DNA of 48,233 nucleotides from Fibrobacter succinogenes. Lineage in GTDB: Bacteria; Fibrobacterota; Fibrobacteria; Fibrobacterales; Fibrobacteraceae. The notes beneath the pieces were generated by a model. It was given only the letters and a program-made list of their open reading frames with translations, did not search any database and was not told where the DNA came from. The translations under genes were made by a program, and so were the position numbers. The stretch lies in the NCBI GenBank assembly GCA_902768325.1, contig CACXKY010000003.1, forward strand, positions 1 to 48,233, read 5' to 3'. Positions 3,669 to 42,171 of this stretch are shown here, one piece after another; the stretch's first letter is position 1, and each line of letters starts with the position of its first letter.

Positions 3669-5579
3669 ATGGCTCGGTTTATGGGATTCCTTATACCAGT
3701 GCTGATGCTGGCGCTCTATTTGGGCGCCTGTAGTTCTGCACCCCATAAGCAGGGCGACTCCAACCAGGCGACGCTTACGGCCGTAGATTCCGCGGTCATC
3801 AAGGATGCGCTTGAAAAGATGAACATGCCGCAAGACTTGGACGTCGCGCATGAATCTTTTATACGGGCGCAAGAAATGGAACTGCGTGGCGAAAAGCAGT
3901 TGGCCGAAGTTTTCTGGCAGCGCGCCTATGACGCTGACCCGGGGAACCGCTACCTCGCTTTCAATGTGGCCGCCCGTTTGTTTGCCCACGGGAACGATTC
4001 CGCCGCGCTTGCGGTGGCGCGTAAGGCGTCCGGTTACAAGGGCCCCGTGCTGACGAGCCAGCTGGAACTGTTGGCGAAGCTGTACGTGAAGGAAGGCATC
4101 GCCGATTCCGCACGTAAGTACTTCAAGGTGGCGCTGGATTCTTCGCACAACCAGGACATGACCTTGCTCTATGACTACAGCCTCTTCTTGGAAGCGGTCC
4201 AAGACAAGAAGGAACTGGTGAAGGTCTACGATGCGCTCCTCCCGCAGACGAACTACATCCAGTCGCTGTTTGCCCGCCAGCTGAACATCTTGTTGGAACT
4301 CGGTAAGGATTCCGCCATCGTGGAGCTGTTCGGGAAGGCTTACGACGCCCTCGGTGATAAGGAATTGCTCGTGAAGATGGTCCAGGGCCTCGCCATGCAG
4401 AAGAGGAATGCCGAAGTCCGTGCCATTGCCGATACGATTACCGGGAACACCGAACAGGATGAGGCGATTATCAATACGGCGCTGATGACTTTTGGCGACC
4501 GCGATCGCGAGGCGGCATTCAAGTTCTTGAAGAAGAAGGTGTACAAGGACAGCCTCCGCACGCCGGTGATGTTCTATTACCTCGGCAGTTACGAGTTTGC
4601 CATGGGCGAGCGCGATAGCGCGAAAGTCCACCTGGGCGATGTCTACCTGAAACTCGGCAAGACTCCGGCTTATGCGGCCCAGGCCTGCCGTGCGCTTTCG
4701 GGAATTGCCTTTGCCGAAGATAACAAGAAGGAAGGGCTCCGCTACGCGGAACTTGCCGATTCCCTGCAACTGAGCGGCGACAAGGACTTCTTGGCGATGG
4801 CCTACGGCTATGCCGGCGTTTATGATAAGGCTTACGTGTTGCTCGATTCGATGATGGCCGTGTGGAGCCATTGGACACCGATGGCGGGCGTTGCCGATTC
4901 GGCGACGGTTGCGATCATGCGTAAGAAGGCGTCCCGTGCCCACCGCCAGCTGCAGCATTCCTATGCGCAGATTTTGCTGATGGAAGCCCGCGATATCGAA
5001 GACGACGGCAAGGCGGATACTTTAAAGCGTTCCCGCGCCAAGGAAGCCCGTACCAAGGCGGAACTGTTTTGGGAAAGCATGCTGATGGCCGATTCGACGG
5101 ATATGTTCGTCCGTTCGCTGATGGCGATGAACCTGGAGAGGCTCGGGCGTTATGACGAATCTTTCCGGATGTTCGAATACCTGCTGCAAAACGCGGCTCA
5201 GGCCCGCCTGGACTGGCCCGAACTGCTGAACTACTACGGCTATTCGCTGATTGACTTGAACCGCAGTCCGGAAGAAGTGGAAAAGGGATTCCAGATGGTG
5301 GTGAAGGCGTTGGAGATGGAAGGGGATTCCCCGAGCGAGGCTTTCCTCGATTCCAAGGCCTGGGCGCTGTTCCGCAAGGGCAATTATGAAGAAGCCCTTT
5401 CGACGATGAAGCTTATCAAGTCGAAGCACTTTGAGAATGATTACGTTTACTGGGAGCACCTTGCTGCCATCCAGAATGCGCTAGGCAAGAAGTCCGATGC
5501 GACGAAGTCGTACAAGAAGCTCCTGAAGTTGCGCCCGAACCATCCTGCCGCCAAGGAATTCCTGGGCAAGAAAAAGTAG
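3669..5579 (+). CDS. TPR-repeat lipoprotein (636 aa)
   Basis: The N-terminus is a lipoprotein signal with hydrophobic core and lipobox LGAC (Cys at about residue 19), then a Ser/Gln-rich spacer. The rest is almost entirely helical tetratricopeptide-like repeats, for example AEVFWQRAYDADPGNRYLAF near residue 80 and the C-terminal NYEEALSTMKLIKSK and SYKKLLKLRPNHPAAKEF. Such proteins are assembly or scaffold factors on the periplasmic face of the outer membrane. It lies 7 bp after the PASTA gene and 6 bp before another lipoprotein, so the three probably form one envelope operon. No specific partner can be named from the sequence. Confidence 0.85.
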   Translation: MARFMGFLIPVLMLALYLGACSSAPHKQGDSNQATLTAVDSAVIKDALEKMNMPQDLDVAHESFIRAQEMELRGEKQLAEVFWQRAYDADPGNRYLAFNVAARLFAHGNDSAALAVARKASGYKGPVLTSQLELLAKLYVKEGIADSARKYFKVALDSSHNQDMTLLYDYSLFLEAVQDKKELVKVYDALLPQTNYIQSLFARQLNILLELGKDSAIVELFGKAYDALGDKELLVKMVQGLAMQKRNAEVRAIADTITGNTEQDEAIINTALMTFGDRDREAAFKFLKKKVYKDSLRTPVMFYYLGSYEFAMGERDSAKVHLGDVYLKLGKTPAYAAQACRALSGIAFAEDNKKEGLRYAELADSLQLSGDKDFLAMAYGYAGVYDKAYVLLDSMMAVWSHWTPMAGVADSATVAIMRKKASRAHRQLQHSYAQILLMEARDIEDDGKADTLKRSRAKEARTKAELFWESMLMADSTDMFVRSLMAMNLERLGRYDESFRMFEYLLQNAAQARLDWPELLNYYGYSLIDLNRSPEEVEKGFQMVVKALEMEGDSPSEAFLDSKAWALFRKGNYEEALSTMKLIKSKHFENDYVYWEHLAAIQNALGKKSDATKSYKKLLKLRPNHPAAKEFLGKKK

Positions 5580-21490: not shown

Positions 21491-22816
21491 ATGTCTCAGA
21501 TAATGCAGAAAATATATGCGTTGTTTAGGATGAACATCCTTATCTTCGTGTTGCTTGCGGCAACGGTGATAGCGCTATTTGCGTATCAGAACGGTCTGGA
21601 TGATATTGAATTTTTGAACTTGGCTGATTACCCCTACGTGATTCCGGAGTCGGACTCGGTAGACGGGGGTACATCGGCGATTGCCCTGGAACGTACCGAT
21701 TCGTCGATTATTGTCGATTACGAGCTGAGGGAAGGCTATGCCTACCCCTATGCCGGCGTCAAGATCTTCCTCGGTGACGGCAAGACCCGCGGCAAGAACC
21801 TTTCCCATTATGACAGCATTTTCGTGTGGGTGAAGCCCCGCGGCGAAGGTACGGTCCGCCTCTACATGCGCGGCTACGATTCCGCCTTCTACCGCCAGGA
21901 CGACGAGACCTCGCTGAAGTTCAACGAAGTCGAATTCTTCCCGCTCGAAGAGACGTACCCCGCCGTGTTCGTGCCGCAGGAATTCCGCGTGGCCAGCTGG
22001 TGGGTCGCCCAGAACGAAATCAACGTCCACAAGGCCCGCGTCGACCTCTCGAACATCCCGCTTATCGAAATCCAGACGGGTACGAACGCCCCGCTGGGCT
22101 ACGGTACCCTGGAAATCAGGGGGCTTTGCTTCAAGGGCAAGAAGATTGCGAAGGTGGACCTCGTGACCATCCTGGTCGTCATCTGGTTTGTCACGTTCCT
22201 CATCATCCTGGTCATCCGCTTCTTCGACTACAGCCGCGAACGCGTGGCCAACAAGCGCAAGCAAGAAGAACTCGAGAAGAACCTTGCCGCCTTGCAGATC
22301 GAGAAGAGCGAATACGAGAAGTCCAGCAAGGAAGACCCGCTGACCGGCTGCCTCAACCGCGCAGGCTTCAGCAGCATCTTGTTGCGTGAACAGGAAAACC
22401 TGAGCAAGAACGGTTGCCCGGTTTCGTTCGTGATTCTCGATATCGACCACTTCAAGGACGTGAACGATACCTACGGCCATAGCGTCGGTGACGAAGTCCT
22501 CGTGAACCTCACCAGGCTTATCCGCGACAAGATCCGTAACACGGATGCGCTAGTCCGTTGGGGCGGTGAAGAGTTTGTAATACTTTGTAGTGACACTCCT
22601 ATACAGAACGCTCAGTTCCTCGCCGAGAAGCTCCGCGTGGCTATCGAGGGAGCAGTCTTGATCAAGCAGCAACAGGTGACCTGCTCCTTCGGTATTGCCG
22701 AGATGATTCCTGGCGAAGACCCGAAGAAGCTGTTCGAAAGGGCGGACAAGGCCCTCTACTCTGCCAAGGAAGGTGGACGCAACCGCGTGGTCAGCGCCAT
22801 GTTCAAGCGCCGCTAG
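21491..22816 (+). CDS. Membrane diguanylate cyclase with periplasmic sensor domain
   Basis: The 441-residue protein has a transmembrane helix at about 13-35, a periplasmic domain of about 180 residues, and a second helix at about 218-240. A coiled coil follows (about 245-280, rich in Glu/Lys/Gln), then a GGDEF domain with the active-site signature GGEEF at 358-362. The inhibitory site RxxD is present (R349-D352), so product feedback is likely. It makes cyclic di-GMP from two GTP. The periplasmic part (LSHYDSIFVWVKPRGEGTVRLYMRG and later LGYGTLEIRGLCFKG) looks like a CBM11/CIA30-type galactose-binding fold, which suggests sugar or cell-wall sensing (inference). Confidence 0.93.
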   Translation: MSQIMQKIYALFRMNILIFVLLAATVIALFAYQNGLDDIEFLNLADYPYVIPESDSVDGGTSAIALERTDSSIIVDYELREGYAYPYAGVKIFLGDGKTRGKNLSHYDSIFVWVKPRGEGTVRLYMRGYDSAFYRQDDETSLKFNEVEFFPLEETYPAVFVPQEFRVASWWVAQNEINVHKARVDLSNIPLIEIQTGTNAPLGYGTLEIRGLCFKGKKIAKVDLVTILVVIWFVTFLIILVIRFFDYSRERVANKRKQEELEKNLAALQIEKSEYEKSSKEDPLTGCLNRAGFSSILLREQENLSKNGCPVSFVILDIDHFKDVNDTYGHSVGDEVLVNLTRLIRDKIRNTDALVRWGGEEFVILCSDTPIQNAQFLAEKLRVAIEGAVLIKQQQVTCSFGIAEMIPGEDPKKLFERADKALYSAKEGGRNRVVSAMFKRR

Positions 22817-22823
22817 TCTTGAT

Positions 22824-23222
22824 ATGAACTTGTATGTGAAGTTTATTTGCCTTGCCGCGTTCTGCGCGGTCTTGGCGTCGTGTGCCAAGAAGCCTCCCGT
22901 GGAAAGCCAGCCGGAGTCCCTGGAACTGGATTTCCGCCCGCTGGTGCTCCGCTGGCATACGGAATCGCCCGAAGCGGAAAATTCCCCCGCCAAGGATTCC
23001 TGCGTGATTCAAATCACAGCGGCGCTGATGCACCATCCCCTGATCCTCAAGTCCGAAGCGGTCGAACTGGAGTATATGGTCCTGTACGACAAAAACGGCG
23101 AAAAACTTGTTTTTGAGGGTTTTGTTGCGGATAAGATGTTGACAGGACGCCCGGAATCACATTGGACCACCACCTGTGGTGGGGGCCAAAATGTCGTTGT
23201 AAATTTCCACAACGGACAGTAA
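22824..23222 (+). CDS. Small lipoprotein, unknown function
   Basis: The ATG at 22824, 7 bp after the cyclase stop, gives a 132-residue protein with signal MNLYVKFICLAAFCAVLASC and lipobox LASC (Cys at residue 20). The mature part is hydrophilic with a possible small beta domain (VIQITAALMHHPLILKSEAVELEYMVLYDKNGEKLVFEGF) and two more Cys. No family was recognised. The end of the gene carries a strong inverted repeat, CCACCAC-CT-GTGGTGG (23167-23182), inside the coding sequence. It may be co-transcribed with the cyclase. Confidence 0.75.
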   Translation: MNLYVKFICLAAFCAVLASCAKKPPVESQPESLELDFRPLVLRWHTESPEAENSPAKDSCVIQITAALMHHPLILKSEAVELEYMVLYDKNGEKLVFEGFVADKMLTGRPESHWTTTCGGGQNVVVNFHNGQ

Positions 23223-23238
23223 AAGAAAAGATACCTTT

Positions 23239-23267
23239 TGGACTTGCAAGGTTCTATCTTTATAATG
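23239..23267 (+). promoter_or_regulatory. Promoter of the first TIGR02147-lipoprotein pair
   Basis: TTGGAC (23239-23244), a 17-bp spacer and TATAAT (23262-23267) form a near-ideal sigma-70-type promoter. The octamer TATCTTTA (23256-23263), identical to that before purA, overlaps it, so which element is used is uncertain. The leader would be about 40 nt to the GTG start. Confidence 0.55.
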
Positions 23268-23314: not shown

Positions 23315-24151
23315 GTGGAACCGATATTCGAATATACCGACTATAGGGAATGGCTGAGGGATGCGTTCGACGATTTTAAGAAACGCAAGTCCGTCATTTC
23401 TTGGCGCTATATGGCGATGAAGCTGGGAGCGGATCCCGGCAACTTGTTGCGTGTTTCCCAGAGCAAGATCCACCTGACCCTTTCTCTTGTGAAACCCATG
23501 GCGGAGTTCTTCGAGTTGAACGAGAAGGAAACGGCCTACTGGGTGGAACTCGTGTATTTCGGCCGTGCCAAGACGGACGCCGAAGCGCTGAACCATTACG
23601 AAAAGATGCAGATGCTCAAGGGAATCCCCCTGAAGCGCCTTGCGAAGAAGGAACTGGAGTTCTACCGCCACTGGTATTGCAACGCTATCCGTTCCATTAT
23701 CGGCATTTGCAAGTTCAAAGACGACTACGAGGGCCTGGCGGAGAGCTGTACGCCCCCAATTTCTGTCGAAGAGGCAAAAAGTGCCGTCAAACTTTTGTAT
23801 GATTTAAATATGATTTCACGGGATAGGGATGGATTTTGGAAGGTGAACGACACCTTCGTGAGCACTGGTGGCAACTGGCGTTCCGAAGCGGTCCGTACTT
23901 TCCAGAAAGAGACGGTGCGCCTTGCAGGCGAATCGTTGGAGCGCCATGCTCCGCCTCTGCGCGATATCAGCACCGTGACGATGACGTTCAAGATGGACGA
24001 AATCGCGTTGATCCGTGAAAAGATTAAGGAATTCCGCAGTGAGCTCTTGCGCATGTCGCAGGAAGGCTCCGGCGATGACACCGTGTTCCAGCTGAACGTT
24101 CAGCTGTTCCCGATTGCATTTGCAAAGAAGTTACAGGGAGGCGCAAAATGA
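23315..24151 (+). CDS. TIGR02147-family protein (pair 1, upstream member)
   Basis: GTG 23315 was chosen because GAGGA lies 8 bases upstream and the homologous gene at 40650 also begins GTG just before the shared PIFEYxDYR. The 278-residue product has no signal peptide or membrane helix and is mostly helical. A helix-turn-helix-like stretch is near the start (SWRYMAMKLGADPGNLLRV), and the C-terminus ends in a conserved LNxQLFP motif. TIGR02147 is a paralogous family of unknown function known from Fibrobacter and Bdellovibrio; a DNA-binding role is suspected but unproven. The last codons (QGG) also encode the ribosome-binding site of the lipoprotein gene that overlaps by 4 bases. Confidence 0.88.
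   Translation: MEPIFEYTDYREWLRDAFDDFKKRKSVISWRYMAMKLGADPGNLLRVSQSKIHLTLSLVKPMAEFFELNEKETAYWVELVYFGRAKTDAEALNHYEKMQMLKGIPLKRLAKKELEFYRHWYCNAIRSIIGICKFKDDYEGLAESCTPPISVEEAKSAVKLLYDLNMISRDRDGFWKVNDTFVSTGGNWRSEAVRTFQKETVRLAGESLERHAPPLRDISTVTMTFKMDEIALIREKIKEFRSELLRMSQEGSGDDTVFQLNVQLFPIAFAKKLQGGAK
24134..24141 (+). promoter_or_regulatory. Ribosome-binding site embedded in the TIGR02147 C-terminus
   Basis: CAGGGAGG, a strong Shine-Dalgarno sequence 6 bases before ATG 24148, lies in the Gln-Gly-Gly codons at the end of the upstream gene. The same octamer in the same codons occurs at 41460-41467. Confidence 0.75.
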
Positions 24152-25842
24152 AAAGGCTAGCGCTTCTCCTTAGCATGCTTGGCCTCGTATGCTGTTCTAC
24201 CGGAACGAACGATGAACTCGCCGGTGGTCCGGGTAGCGAGACTACAAACGGTGTCGTTGCGATGGTCAACGGTAGTCCTGCCTCGTATGCGGGCGTAGCC
24301 TTGCGCAAGGTCAACTTTAAGGTTGATGAACTCGTTCCGGAAAATGCAATTGTCCAGCCGGACAACTATGCGAACGAGGACGGTAACTTTACTCTGGAAT
24401 ACGATTCTGCCGGAACGTTCCGCTTGACGGTGGTCCATGGCGGTTCCGCCTTCACGAAGGTGGTGTCGGGCAGCGAAATGGCCAACATGGATACGGTGGT
24501 ATTGGAACCGACGGGCTCCGTGGCCGGCTCCGTGAATGTTCCCAAGGGTTCCGGATTCGTTTGGGTGGGCGTCCACGGGATGGACGTGATGGTCAAGTCC
24601 GACTCGGCCGGACAGTTCTCCCTGCCGCAACTTCCGTCTACGGATTCGCTGGATATTTACTTTGTTCGCAACGACAAGGAATCGGTCTTCAACTCGGTCG
24701 GTGTAAAGCCGGAAGCTTACCAGACTACGATTGTCGAGGTGGAAGGCGATATTCCCGAAGGGATGTCCCAGTTCGTGGCGCTTGTCGATGGCAAACCGGC
24801 CATGTATGCCATGATGTCCATGCGTCCGGTGGACTTCCGCGTCGAAAAGGCTTCGATTGAAAATGCGGCCATTGTGGCCGACTACTTTGCAGATGTTTCT
24901 GGAAAGGTTCTGTTCGACCTCCCGGATTCGGGCGATGTACGCCTGACGGTGGTGCAGTCCGGCTATGCTTTCTCCAAGATTCTGTCGGCTGAAGAAGTGG
25001 CTGAACTGGATACGGTTGAACTGACGGCCATGTCCAACATTCAGAGCAAGGTAACGCTGAGCACGAACGCCAAACATGCGTGGGTCGGCGTGACGGGCCT
25101 CGATGTTCTGGTCAAGACCGATAAGTCGGGTAAGTTCTCGCTGCCGCTGCTCCCGGCGGGCGATACGCTGGAACTCTATATGGCGACGGCGTCTTTCGAC
25201 AGCGTCTATGTGACAGAAAAGATTCTGCTTGATCCGGGCGTGACGGAGTTCTATTCCCCGGTGAAAGTCTTGAGCGATTTTGAAGAAGATTCCCTGACGG
25301 GCGCCTGGTATTTCAGTGCGGACAAGATCGGTTCTTCGATTACGTATGGCGGCAAGACCATTTCGGGCAAGAGTAACGACGCGGCTTACCCGTCGTTGAG
25401 TGTCACTGTGCCCAATGCGAAGGATTCTGTTCGCGGCGGAGTGTTCTATGGCAAGTACAGCATGTTCCCCGACGATAACGCCTGGGTGCTTGTCGGAACG
25501 ATGTTCGGAGATTCCTCCTGGAACTTCTCGGAACTGGATTCAATTTCGTTCAGGATCAAGGGCAAGGGCCAGGTCCGCGTGACTTTGGAACGCTGGGATA
25601 CCATTTCGGAAATGTTCGGTTCTGCTGAAAAGGCCGCGAGCGGATGGATGGACATGAGTGCCTCCAAGTGGACGAAATTCGTGATCAAGCCGACGGACCT
25701 CTGTTACACTGCCCAGGACGTTCCTAACTGCGCTTCCTCTTGGGAATCCATCAAGAGCCATGTCCAGCAGATGCACGTATTCGTAAGGGGCGGCTCCGAA
25801 TTCTACCTGGACGATATTCGCCTCTACGGCGCGCTTTTCTAG
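24148..25842 (+). CDS. Lipoprotein with two repeated beta domains and a CBM11-like domain (pair 1)
   Basis: The 564-residue protein has a lipoprotein signal (MKRLALLLSMLGLVCC, Cys at 15-16). Two tandem repeats follow, each with VDG/VNG-x-PA-x-YA, a DFRV/NFKVDEL stretch and WVGVxGxDVxVKxDxxGxFSLPxLP (about residues 35-180 and 210-360), resembling carboxypeptidase-regulatory-like domains. The C-terminal 190 residues (from VLSDFEEDSLTGAW to FYLDDIRLYG) look like a CBM11/CIA30 galactose-binding fold. The start overlaps the regulator stop (ATGA). It is probably surface-exposed and sugar-binding, under control of the paired protein (inference). Confidence 0.85.
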   Translation: MKRLALLLSMLGLVCCSTGTNDELAGGPGSETTNGVVAMVNGSPASYAGVALRKVNFKVDELVPENAIVQPDNYANEDGNFTLEYDSAGTFRLTVVHGGSAFTKVVSGSEMANMDTVVLEPTGSVAGSVNVPKGSGFVWVGVHGMDVMVKSDSAGQFSLPQLPSTDSLDIYFVRNDKESVFNSVGVKPEAYQTTIVEVEGDIPEGMSQFVALVDGKPAMYAMMSMRPVDFRVEKASIENAAIVADYFADVSGKVLFDLPDSGDVRLTVVQSGYAFSKILSAEEVAELDTVELTAMSNIQSKVTLSTNAKHAWVGVTGLDVLVKTDKSGKFSLPLLPAGDTLELYMATASFDSVYVTEKILLDPGVTEFYSPVKVLSDFEEDSLTGAWYFSADKIGSSITYGGKTISGKSNDAAYPSLSVTVPNAKDSVRGGVFYGKYSMFPDDNAWVLVGTMFGDSSWNFSELDSISFRIKGKGQVRVTLERWDTISEMFGSAEKAASGWMDMSASKWTKFVIKPTDLCYTAQDVPNCASSWESIKSHVQQMHVFVRGGSEFYLDDIRLYGALF

Positions 25843-40526: not shown

Positions 40527-40551
40527 TATATACCACAAGTTGTGTTATATA
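40527..40551. promoter_or_regulatory. 25-bp dyad, candidate operator upstream of TIGR02147 gene 2
   Basis: The site is centred on base 40539 with inner arms CACAA/TTGTG and outer arms TATATA on both sides. One mismatched pair separates the inner and outer arms. It lies about 110 bp before the GTG start in an AT-rich gap of 167 bp (40483-40649) that holds no other gene. Confidence 0.45.
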
Positions 40552-40649
40552 AGCCTAAAAATTTGCTGAAACTGTAAAAACTTTAGAATTTGCTTTAAAA
40601 ACAATGATTTTGTGTTATGAAATGGCTATATTGGTGGCGGGGGAAATCC

Positions 40650-41480
40650 GTGAGCCCAATATTTGAGTATATCGATTACAGGCGCTACATGCAGGCGTTC
40701 TACGACGAACGCAAGCGTACGTCGGCTTTTACGTGGAGGGAGTTCTCGCGTATTGCGGGGTTCTCTTCGTCGAACTACATGAAGCTCGTTTGCGATGGCA
40801 AGAGCCGCCTTTCGAAGGCGGGTGTAGAACGTGTCGCCGATGCGATGGAACTAGACGGTGGTGCCAAGGAATACTTCCGCGAAATGGTCGCCTTTGCCGA
40901 TGCGCGTGACGAAGGCAAGCGCAGGGACGCCTTTGCGAAAATGCAGCTGCTGGCCAAAGAAAACAAGGTGCGTACGCTGGCGGCCGATGCCTACGCCTAT
41001 TTTAGCAAGTGGTATAATCCGGTGTTGCGTGAACTGGCGCCGATGAACCCTGGCGTAAAGCCGATGGAACTTTCCAAAATGTGCTACCCGGAATTGAGTG
41101 CCACGGAAATCCGCAAGTCGCTCGACTTTATGGTGCAGGCGGGCTTGCTCCAAAAGCAGGACGAGTATCATTACCGCCAATCCGAGAAGGTGGTGACGGG
41201 CGTTGCGGGCAAGGTTCCTCCGGCCATGCGTCCCATGCATCGGCAGATGGCCGAACTCGCTGTCGATGCGCTTGAAAACATTCCCGTGGATGAACGTCGC
41301 TTTGCCGGAATGACCATGGGGATTTCGCGCAGGACCTTCTTACGCATCGCTCACGAAGTCGAGATGTTTAGGCGAAAGATTATCGCCATTGCAAGCGAAG
41401 AAAAACGTGCCGAACAAGTATACCGTTTGAATTTACAGCTGTTTCCGCTGACTAGGCCGCAGGGAGGGTGCCATGAATAA
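40650..41480 (+). CDS. TIGR02147-family protein (pair 2, upstream member)
   Basis: GTG 40650 is preferred because it aligns with the GTG of the homolog at 23315 directly before SPIFEYIDYR; an in-frame ATG 11 codons upstream is possible. The 276-residue soluble, helical protein shares with its paralog the N-terminal PIFEYxDYR, a helix-turn-helix-like FTWREFSRIAGFSSSNYMK, the middle AFAKMQLLA-type segment and the C-terminal LNLQLFP motif, but most other positions differ. The last residues QGGCHE again contain the ribosome-binding site for the overlapping lipoprotein gene. The pair sits between paralogous glycosyltransferase genes, unlike pair 1. Confidence 0.88.
   Translation: MSPIFEYIDYRRYMQAFYDERKRTSAFTWREFSRIAGFSSSNYMKLVCDGKSRLSKAGVERVADAMELDGGAKEYFREMVAFADARDEGKRRDAFAKMQLLAKENKVRTLAADAYAYFSKWYNPVLRELAPMNPGVKPMELSKMCYPELSATEIRKSLDFMVQAGLLQKQDEYHYRQSEKVVTGVAGKVPPAMRPMHRQMAELAVDALENIPVDERRFAGMTMGISRRTFLRIAHEVEMFRRKIIAIASEEKRAEQVYRLNLQLFPLTRPQGGCHE
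41460..41467 (+). promoter_or_regulatory. Ribosome-binding site embedded in the TIGR02147 C-terminus (pair 2)
   Basis: CAGGGAGG lies 5 bases before ATG 41473 and encodes Gln-Gly-Gly of the upstream protein, exactly as at 24134-24141. Confidence 0.75.
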
Positions 41481-42171
41481 GCTTTTAGGACTTACCCTGT
41501 GTTTTGCCCTGTTCGTATCGTGTTCTTTTTCCGACGATGCGGCCGGGGTGACAACGGAGTCGAACGATGTCATCGCCGAAGAAACGAATTATCTCGAAGA
41601 TAAAGCTTCTTCGAGCAGTATTGCGACTGCCGGGGCGAAGTCTTCGTCGAGTATGGCCATGGCATTTTCAAGTATGGCCATGGCAATTTCAAGTGTGGCC
41701 ATGGCAACTTCAAGTGCTGCCTCGGTTATTCAGGATTTGACTATTTTGGACACCTTGCCAATACCGGTGTTGGAAATGCTGTTCACGATGCAGGGTGGTG
41801 AAGTCTACTATGAATCGGATCCCCTGTGCGAGGTGCGCCTCTACGAAGAAGAAAGCGGCGTCTGGCTGAAAACCTCTGGAGCGGAAGGGGAATGGGCGAG
41901 CCTCGTGTTGATAGGGCAGGGTATCGTCTTGGAAAGGGAAAAGAACGTGTACTTGGACGGTATGGAAGATTGCCGTGCCGAGTTCTTCCGATTCAAGCAG
42001 GAATGTGAAAGCCGTTCGGGCATATTTGCGGATAGAGCGAATGAACAGGGATGTGGTGTAGAACCAGAGGTTCACATGACTTGTGTCGTTCCGATATCCG
42101 ATGCGGGAGTATCTGCAGAAGACCTCTTGGTGAATATCGCCGAGCGCTATAAACAAAAATGCAGTAACTAA
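41473..42171 (+). CDS. Lipoprotein with Ser-rich repeat linker (pair 2)
   Basis: The 232-residue protein has signal MNKLLGLTLCFALFVSC with lipobox FVSC. A Ser/Ala/Met linker with in-frame 7-residue repeats follows (SSMAMAF, SSMAMAI, SSVAMAT; about residues 60-80). The C-terminal domain (about 90-232) has six Cys, which suggests disulphides; it includes GGEVYYESDPLCEVRLYEEESG and NEQGCGVEP. No family was recognised and there is no similarity to the lipoprotein of pair 1 apart from the signal. The start overlaps the regulator gene by 8 bases. The Ser-rich spacer is typical of surface-exposed Fibrobacter proteins. Confidence 0.85.
   Translation: MNKLLGLTLCFALFVSCSFSDDAAGVTTESNDVIAEETNYLEDKASSSSIATAGAKSSSSMAMAFSSMAMAISSVAMATSSAASVIQDLTILDTLPIPVLEMLFTMQGGEVYYESDPLCEVRLYEEESGVWLKTSGAEGEWASLVLIGQGIVLEREKNVYLDGMEDCRAEFFRFKQECESRSGIFADRANEQGCGVEPEVHMTCVVPISDAGVSAEDLLVNIAERYKQKCSN
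41650..41712 (+). repeat. 21-bp tandem repeat in lipoprotein linker
   Basis: Three consecutive 21-bp units (41650-41670, 41671-41691, 41692-41712) starting AGTATGGCCATGGCA differ at only a few bases, and a partial fourth unit follows. The period is a multiple of three, so copy-number change would alter linker length without shifting the frame. Confidence 0.8.

Follow-up and report, generated by a model that had tools for sequence, protein, structure and literature searches.

Two TIGR02147-lipoprotein gene pairs in the window

The window is the whole stretch of DNA that was analysed, 48,233 nucleotides from Fibrobacter succinogenes (GenBank assembly GCA_902768325.1, contig CACXKY010000003.1, positions 1 to 48,233 of the forward strand). 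We identified two gene pairs in which a TIGR02147 gene is followed by the gene for a tagged lipoprotein, together with elements upstream:

23195..23214, + strand: CGTTGTAAATTTCCACAACG, putative operator of pair 1, located in the 3' end of the preceding gene
23255..23266, + strand: conserved promoter-like element of pair 1, TATCTTTATA, from the ortholog alignment
23315..24151, + strand: TIGR02147/DUF4423 regulator of pair 1, GTG start, 278 aa
24134..24141, + strand: Shine-Dalgarno sequence CAGGGAGG of the pair 1 lipoprotein, within the 3' end of the regulator gene
24148..25842, + strand: tagged lipoprotein of pair 1, predicted to be at the surface, 564 aa, SPII signal, AGGPGSETTNGVVA tag
40529..40549, + strand: putative distal operator of pair 2, TATACCAC-AAGTT-GTGTTATA
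40612..40619, + strand: putative proximal half-site of pair 2, TTTT-GTGTTATG (TTTTGTGTTATG), 70 bp after the right arm of the distal operator
40627..40632, + strand: -10 element of pair 2, TATATT, from the sequence
40650..41480, + strand: TIGR02147 regulator of pair 2, NCBIfam E 1.1e-90, recognition helix SNYMKLV at residues 41-47
41473..42171, + strand: tagged lipoprotein of pair 2, 232 aa, AGVTTESNDVIA tag followed by a Ser-rich linker

By score, both regulators are clear members of TIGR02147 (Fsuc_second), which they match over nearly the whole length, and PF14394 (DUF4423). The pair 1 protein matches the NCBIfam profile at E 1.5e-100 (336 bits) and DUF4423 with 107.7 bits (gathering score 30 bits, C-terminal 165 positions); the pair 2 protein scores 304 and 89.4 bits, respectively. 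The pair 1 lipoprotein gene begins inside the regulator stop codon (ATGA at 24148-24151), as the earlier note had described, and coordinates, profile match and signal peptide (MKRLALLLSMLGLVC, followed by CS) agree. The second pair named in that note is indeed a TIGR02147 gene plus a lipoprotein gene with the octamer CAGGGAGG in Gln-Gly-Gly codons, and the two genes overlap, but by 8 nt (ATGAATAA) rather than through ATGA. The Gln-Gly-Gly codons are near-terminal, not terminal: the pair 1 regulator ends QGGAK and the pair 2 regulator QGGCHE.

The pair 1 lipoprotein contains one or more CarboxypepD_reg-like domains and a C-terminal part that appears, by eye only, to be jelly-roll-like. Neither window lipoprotein matches FISUMP (TIGR02145). 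The two had been called unrelated, which is right for their bodies, but a common tag follows the Cys in both; a profile of this tag matches at 24160-24258 (E 1.1e-6) and 41491-41580 (E 1e-7). A diguanylate cyclase (GGDEF) gene is located at 21491-22816, two genes upstream of pair 1.

Pairing and the shared lipoprotein tag

The source genome is a 2.9 Mb draft in 231 contigs. It encodes 38 TIGR02147 genes above the curated 50-bit cut-off, plus one fragment, and a same-strand lipoprotein gene follows in 34/34 cases with readable downstream DNA. Intergenic distances range from an overlap of ~20 nt to a gap of 72 nt (typically -4, -8 or <=15 nt), with translational overlap in 18/33 pairs. By a strict automatic lipoprotein rule, a lipoprotein is next on the same strand for 27/31 TIGR02147 genes vs 18/211 other genes of the same contigs (Fisher p = 8e-20). 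The four automatic misses were read as lipoproteins, two having a lipobox or signal outside the strict rule and two a wrong gene call. Tandem duplicated pairs were found on contigs C87 (three) and C76 (two). Several cassettes lie at contig ends (C104, C131, C138, C123, C50, C45, C77), so the family may cause breaks in the assembly, and the number of copies counted is a minimum.

The family was found in 141/151 Fibrobacterota genomes, often in 10-90 copies. Pairing was seen in 29/30 loci of genome G019 and in about 27-28/30 loci of eight distant genera, counts that include R-C, Q-C and N-C lipoboxes read by eye after the script had missed them. Among 80 loci of named Fibrobacter every testable one is paired, five that the script had scored as 'no' being lipoproteins on reading. 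The refuting case set in the earlier note, most TIGR02147 genes lacking a lipoprotein neighbour, clearly does not hold. The coupling of a conserved cytoplasmic partner to a variable lipoprotein, which the earlier note had proposed, is a general modular arrangement of Fibrobacterota.

The exceptions are few. A regulator-only clade with the C-terminus FPVGGK/PIGGKL has no lipoprotein partner (L056 in G019, L095 in G033), and a truncated copy in the source genome (C123:9506-10267) appears to be orthologous to it; being conserved across genera, this clade may have another target. At L099, a secreted Fn3-like protein is encoded downstream. The aligned stretch of several TIGR02147 genes (L217, L218, L229 and others; genomes G055, G107, G116) crosses an in-frame stop, possibly where the alignment runs beyond the real stop.

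The octamer CAGGGAGG and the Gln-Gly-Gly end had been put forward as a conserved coupling device. Among 179 TIGR02147 3' ends, the octamer occurs in two, both in the window, and QGG in three, while 141 contain a plain Shine-Dalgarno core. We therefore abandoned this idea and regard CAGGGAGG as an ordinary ribosome-binding site. Phage origin was also rejected, as there were zero matches in phage records or viral contigs.

What the partner lipoproteins do share is a tag after the lipid-bearing Cys, C-S-x(3-8)-A-G-x-[ST]-E-x-x-N-x-[IV]-A. The lipobox Cys after the hydrophobic signal sequence is invariant in 33/33 partners. The bodies differ: CarboxypepD_reg domains occur in 9/33 and FISUMP in 8/33, and some have lectin-like, CBM or pectate-lyase domains. 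A search by sequence for solved-structure relatives of the lipoproteins found none. From the lipoprotein signals and carbohydrate-binding domains, we infer that they are probably located on the outer surface rather than in the periplasm.

The tag profile has 37 matches at E<1e-4 in the source genome, nearly all directly behind TIGR02147. It was built from source-genome partners, so these hits are partly by construction, and the informative parts are the number of orphans and the result for G019, which was outside the training set: there, 14/15 matches lie directly behind TIGR02147 and the remaining one 2.4 kb downstream of one. Matches in the source genome that do not adjoin a regulator are the second lipoprotein of a TIGR02147 operon (C178:5402), one severed by a contig end (C45), one behind another lipoprotein near a contig end (C77) and a single true orphan without a regulator (C15). 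The orphan (L182; lipoprotein at ~4186-5367 of the reverse complement) resembles the partner on C132, with an ASGYTEE tag; possibly it lost its regulator. In the TIGR02147 operon on C178 (L012, 3088-6568), the first lipoprotein gene is followed by a second one, for a tagged FISUMP lipoprotein; the frame of the first appears shifted (a 205-aa ORF, then an overlapping 597-aa ORF in another frame).

Probable DNA-binding domain, putative operators and promoters

The AlphaFold model of the pair 1 regulator (pLDDT 83, pTM 0.54, 51 sequences) shows an N-terminal bundle of helices 10-24, 30-37, 41-48, 56-65 and 70-83, with 41-48 in recognition position, and then a winged-helix-like segment (~120-177) and two long helices. 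The bundle is the four- to five-helix type with an HTH that defines XRE/lambda-repressor-like domains. Foldseek returned HigA (9chn_C, prob 1.00, 70 columns at rmsd 1.8 A, E 0.52; HigA-type E 0.4-0.5) and MarR-like winged helices. No whole-chain match reached E<=0.001, since the similarity is confined to the HTH and the winged-helix/MarR-like part, each on its own. There are weak sequence matches to C.BclI and other regulators. A DNA-binding role for TIGR02147 proteins is well supported by the model, and specific binding to a palindromic operator is suggested by covariation between recognition helix and operator.

In the main clade, to which pair 2 belongs, upstream regions contain a palindrome of the form rc(w)-N4..7-w (typically N5). 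After another 70-73 bp, w occurs a third time, in most cases 6-8 nt ahead of a TTG(AC) -35 box. A combined match score >=14 of 16 was reached by 31% of 176 upstream regions vs 0.7% of dinucleotide shuffles, and the full 16/16 by 10% vs 0 shuffles; an operator passes the strict rule in only ~40% of loci. The word w varies between paralogs (GTTGCATA, GTAGCATA, GTTTCATA, GTATAATA, GTATCATT, GTGTTATA, GTGTTCTA and others). The distal operator of pair 2 is the sole match in its genome with <=1 mismatch allowed. One word common to all paralogs was rejected: k-mer enrichment gave mainly low-complexity and promoter-like words, and w is specific to each paralog. A coarse comparison of own versus other 10-mers (p = 0.00085) had poor resolution and was superseded by the test of palindrome plus fixed spacing.

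The operator word covaries with the recognition helix. In a mutual-information scan of all protein alignment columns over 30 non-redundant loci, residue 41, the first of this helix, had the strongest signal with operator base 3 (z 15.4), and residue 46, also in the helix, is linked to base 4. Across 74 loci, Pro41 occurs with A at base 3 in 32/33 and Ser, Cys, Ala or Arg41 with T or G in 41/41; the tree, built after masking of the helix, implies about seven Pro/non-Pro and six A/non-A switches. Of 40 regions added later, 15 gave a site and 25 none. The residue-41 rule, derived from the earlier loci, fits 13/15, a test of new loci rather than new lineages, since many proteins of this set share 70-96% identity with those used before. 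In one of the two loci that do not fit, the left arm and the proximal copy do contain the predicted base; the site of the other looks like a chance match. From this covariation each regulator is predicted to bind its own promoter, and autoregulation via private operators would be the most economical reading.

In 53% of loci in the source genome, 67% in named Fibrobacter and 70% in G019, a -10-like hexamer has its end 6-8 nt ahead of the start codon, compared to ~10% on average in control windows; for distant genera this figure is 20%, a weak signal. A Shine-Dalgarno core precedes the regulator in only 16-26% of loci, and the lipoprotein in 23/33. With the -10 element so placed and so few Shine-Dalgarno cores, we predict leaderless regulator transcripts; in the main clade the regulator transcript is probably of this kind.

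Outside the main clade (the pair 1 subfamily and distant genera), the 70-bp architecture is different or was not seen. Pair 1 has a Shine-Dalgarno site ahead of the GTG start of its regulator and a palindrome, GTTGT-N8-ACAAC, that occurs in 30/30 orthologous loci, 72-171 nt before the start and within the end of the preceding gene (in the window 22773-23222, a short gene without a Pfam match). Its codons GTT, GTA, CAC and AAC are synonymously invariant in 28/28 codon-aligned loci, where neighbouring codons vary freely, and the pattern has one exact match in the genome. The palindrome is likely the operator of this divergent subfamily.

Proposed function, alternatives and known systems

The shared tag, the HTH, putative operators that differ between paralogs and promoters that are probably leaderless, all absent from the earlier note, extend an observation of neighbourhood to a proposed regulatory mechanism. 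We consider it quite probable that TIGR02147 proteins are autoregulators with an XRE/HigA-like HTH, encoded in two-gene cassettes with a tagged surface lipoprotein, that main-clade paralogs act on private operators, and that their likely role is the choice of displayed lipoproteins. The full palindrome, ~120 bp ahead of the start codon, would hold a regulator dimer, and the half-site immediately upstream of the -35 box another copy, a geometry that would favour cooperative self-activating transcription, akin to lambda CI at OR2/PRM. As the regulator transcript is probably leaderless and the lipoprotein ribosome-binding site often lies in the last codons of the regulator, a cassette that is turned on would yield both proteins.

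XRE/HigA-type HTH proteins are mostly repressors. Thus, the same cassettes could encode plain negative autoregulators that hold the lipoprotein level constant, with no switching, and palindromes and private operators are equally expected in this case. However, the proximal half-site lies upstream of the -35 box and not over the -10 element or the start, and the main palindrome is ~70 bp further upstream. This position suggests activation rather than repression, and we judge the negative autoregulator to be unlikely.

Much less probable is an action of TIGR02147 on the lipoprotein itself, as a co-translational chaperone or a tag-reading export factor, with the HTH only setting expression. The tag is kept despite differing bodies and is nearly exclusive to TIGR02147 partners, and translational overlap is common (18/33), all of which would suit such a role. 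However, a tag after the Cys would be extracytoplasmic, and in many members it runs on into strand one of CarboxypepD_reg-like domains, so shared descent explains the tag as well. We give still less credence to a neighbourhood merely inherited from an ancestral operon that was repeatedly duplicated, without a common present function: tandem duplicates exist on C87 and C76, but regulator and operator changed together in several independent switches while lipoprotein bodies differ, and the pair 1 operator was kept in 30/30 orthologs. Another idea, that the signal peptide of the lipoprotein acts as a peptide pheromone like those of Enterococcus, was set aside because no evidence pointed to it.

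Returning to self-activating cassettes, some 10-90 of them, insulated from each other, would set in many genomes which carbohydrate-binding or FISUMP-type lipoproteins show, and from this number we infer possible switching and surface diversification. Carried further, the cassettes might form a phylum-wide switchboard for surface display. Each cell would then have tens of orthogonal, self-activating switches of one protein each, perhaps bistable, with private operators and a helix code that can be read; perhaps answering to some input signal, they would together diversify the surface lipoproteins of genetically identical cells. We hold this view only tentatively, as less likely than not.

Fibrobacter is a main cellulose degrader of the rumen. 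To our knowledge, its attachment to fibre is still unclear, and little has been learned about how its surface proteins are regulated. The cassettes provide a testable function for one of the most widespread and expanded Fibrobacterota families and link it to surface lipoproteins, 8/33 of which carry FISUMP, the second large family of Fibrobacter. In addition, the paralogs and their matched operators would offer a natural set of orthogonal regulator-operator pairs with a predicted specificity code.

The TIGR02147 and DUF4423 entries describe only a paralogous family and a domain of unknown function, without lipoprotein partner, operators or code. In the freely available literature that was searched, TIGR02147 is named in no paper and DUF4423 in one, in a table. 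The same search found no description of the tag, operators or recognition code, nor of the pairing, which the earlier note had taken to be undescribed. FISUMP (TIGR02145/PF09603, Fib_succ_major) has been suggested as a cohesin analogue (PMC4704652), and elsewhere diversity-generating retroelements target it (PMC4159848). Most of its 113 matches in the source genome are outside TIGR02147 cassettes, and most partners lack it.

Among known regulators, lambda CI at PRM has palindromic operators, a site just upstream of the -35 box and a leaderless regulator transcript. The TIGR02147 cassettes resemble it and XRE/HigA autoregulators in HTH fold, palindromes, site upstream of -35 and leaderless transcript (predicted here). 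They differ in lacking a toxin or phage context, in an additional C-terminal half of winged helix and long helices, in the number of paralogs, many to a genome and with separate operators, and in their output, a surface lipoprotein. Bacteroidota polysaccharide users also have many paralogous regulator-surface protein loci per genome (SusR or ECF-anti-sigma systems with SusCD), and in this the TIGR02147 cassettes are alike. However, TIGR02147 pairs lack SusC/D, sigma factor, anti-sigma and sensor kinase, and have instead a single-component HTH regulator.
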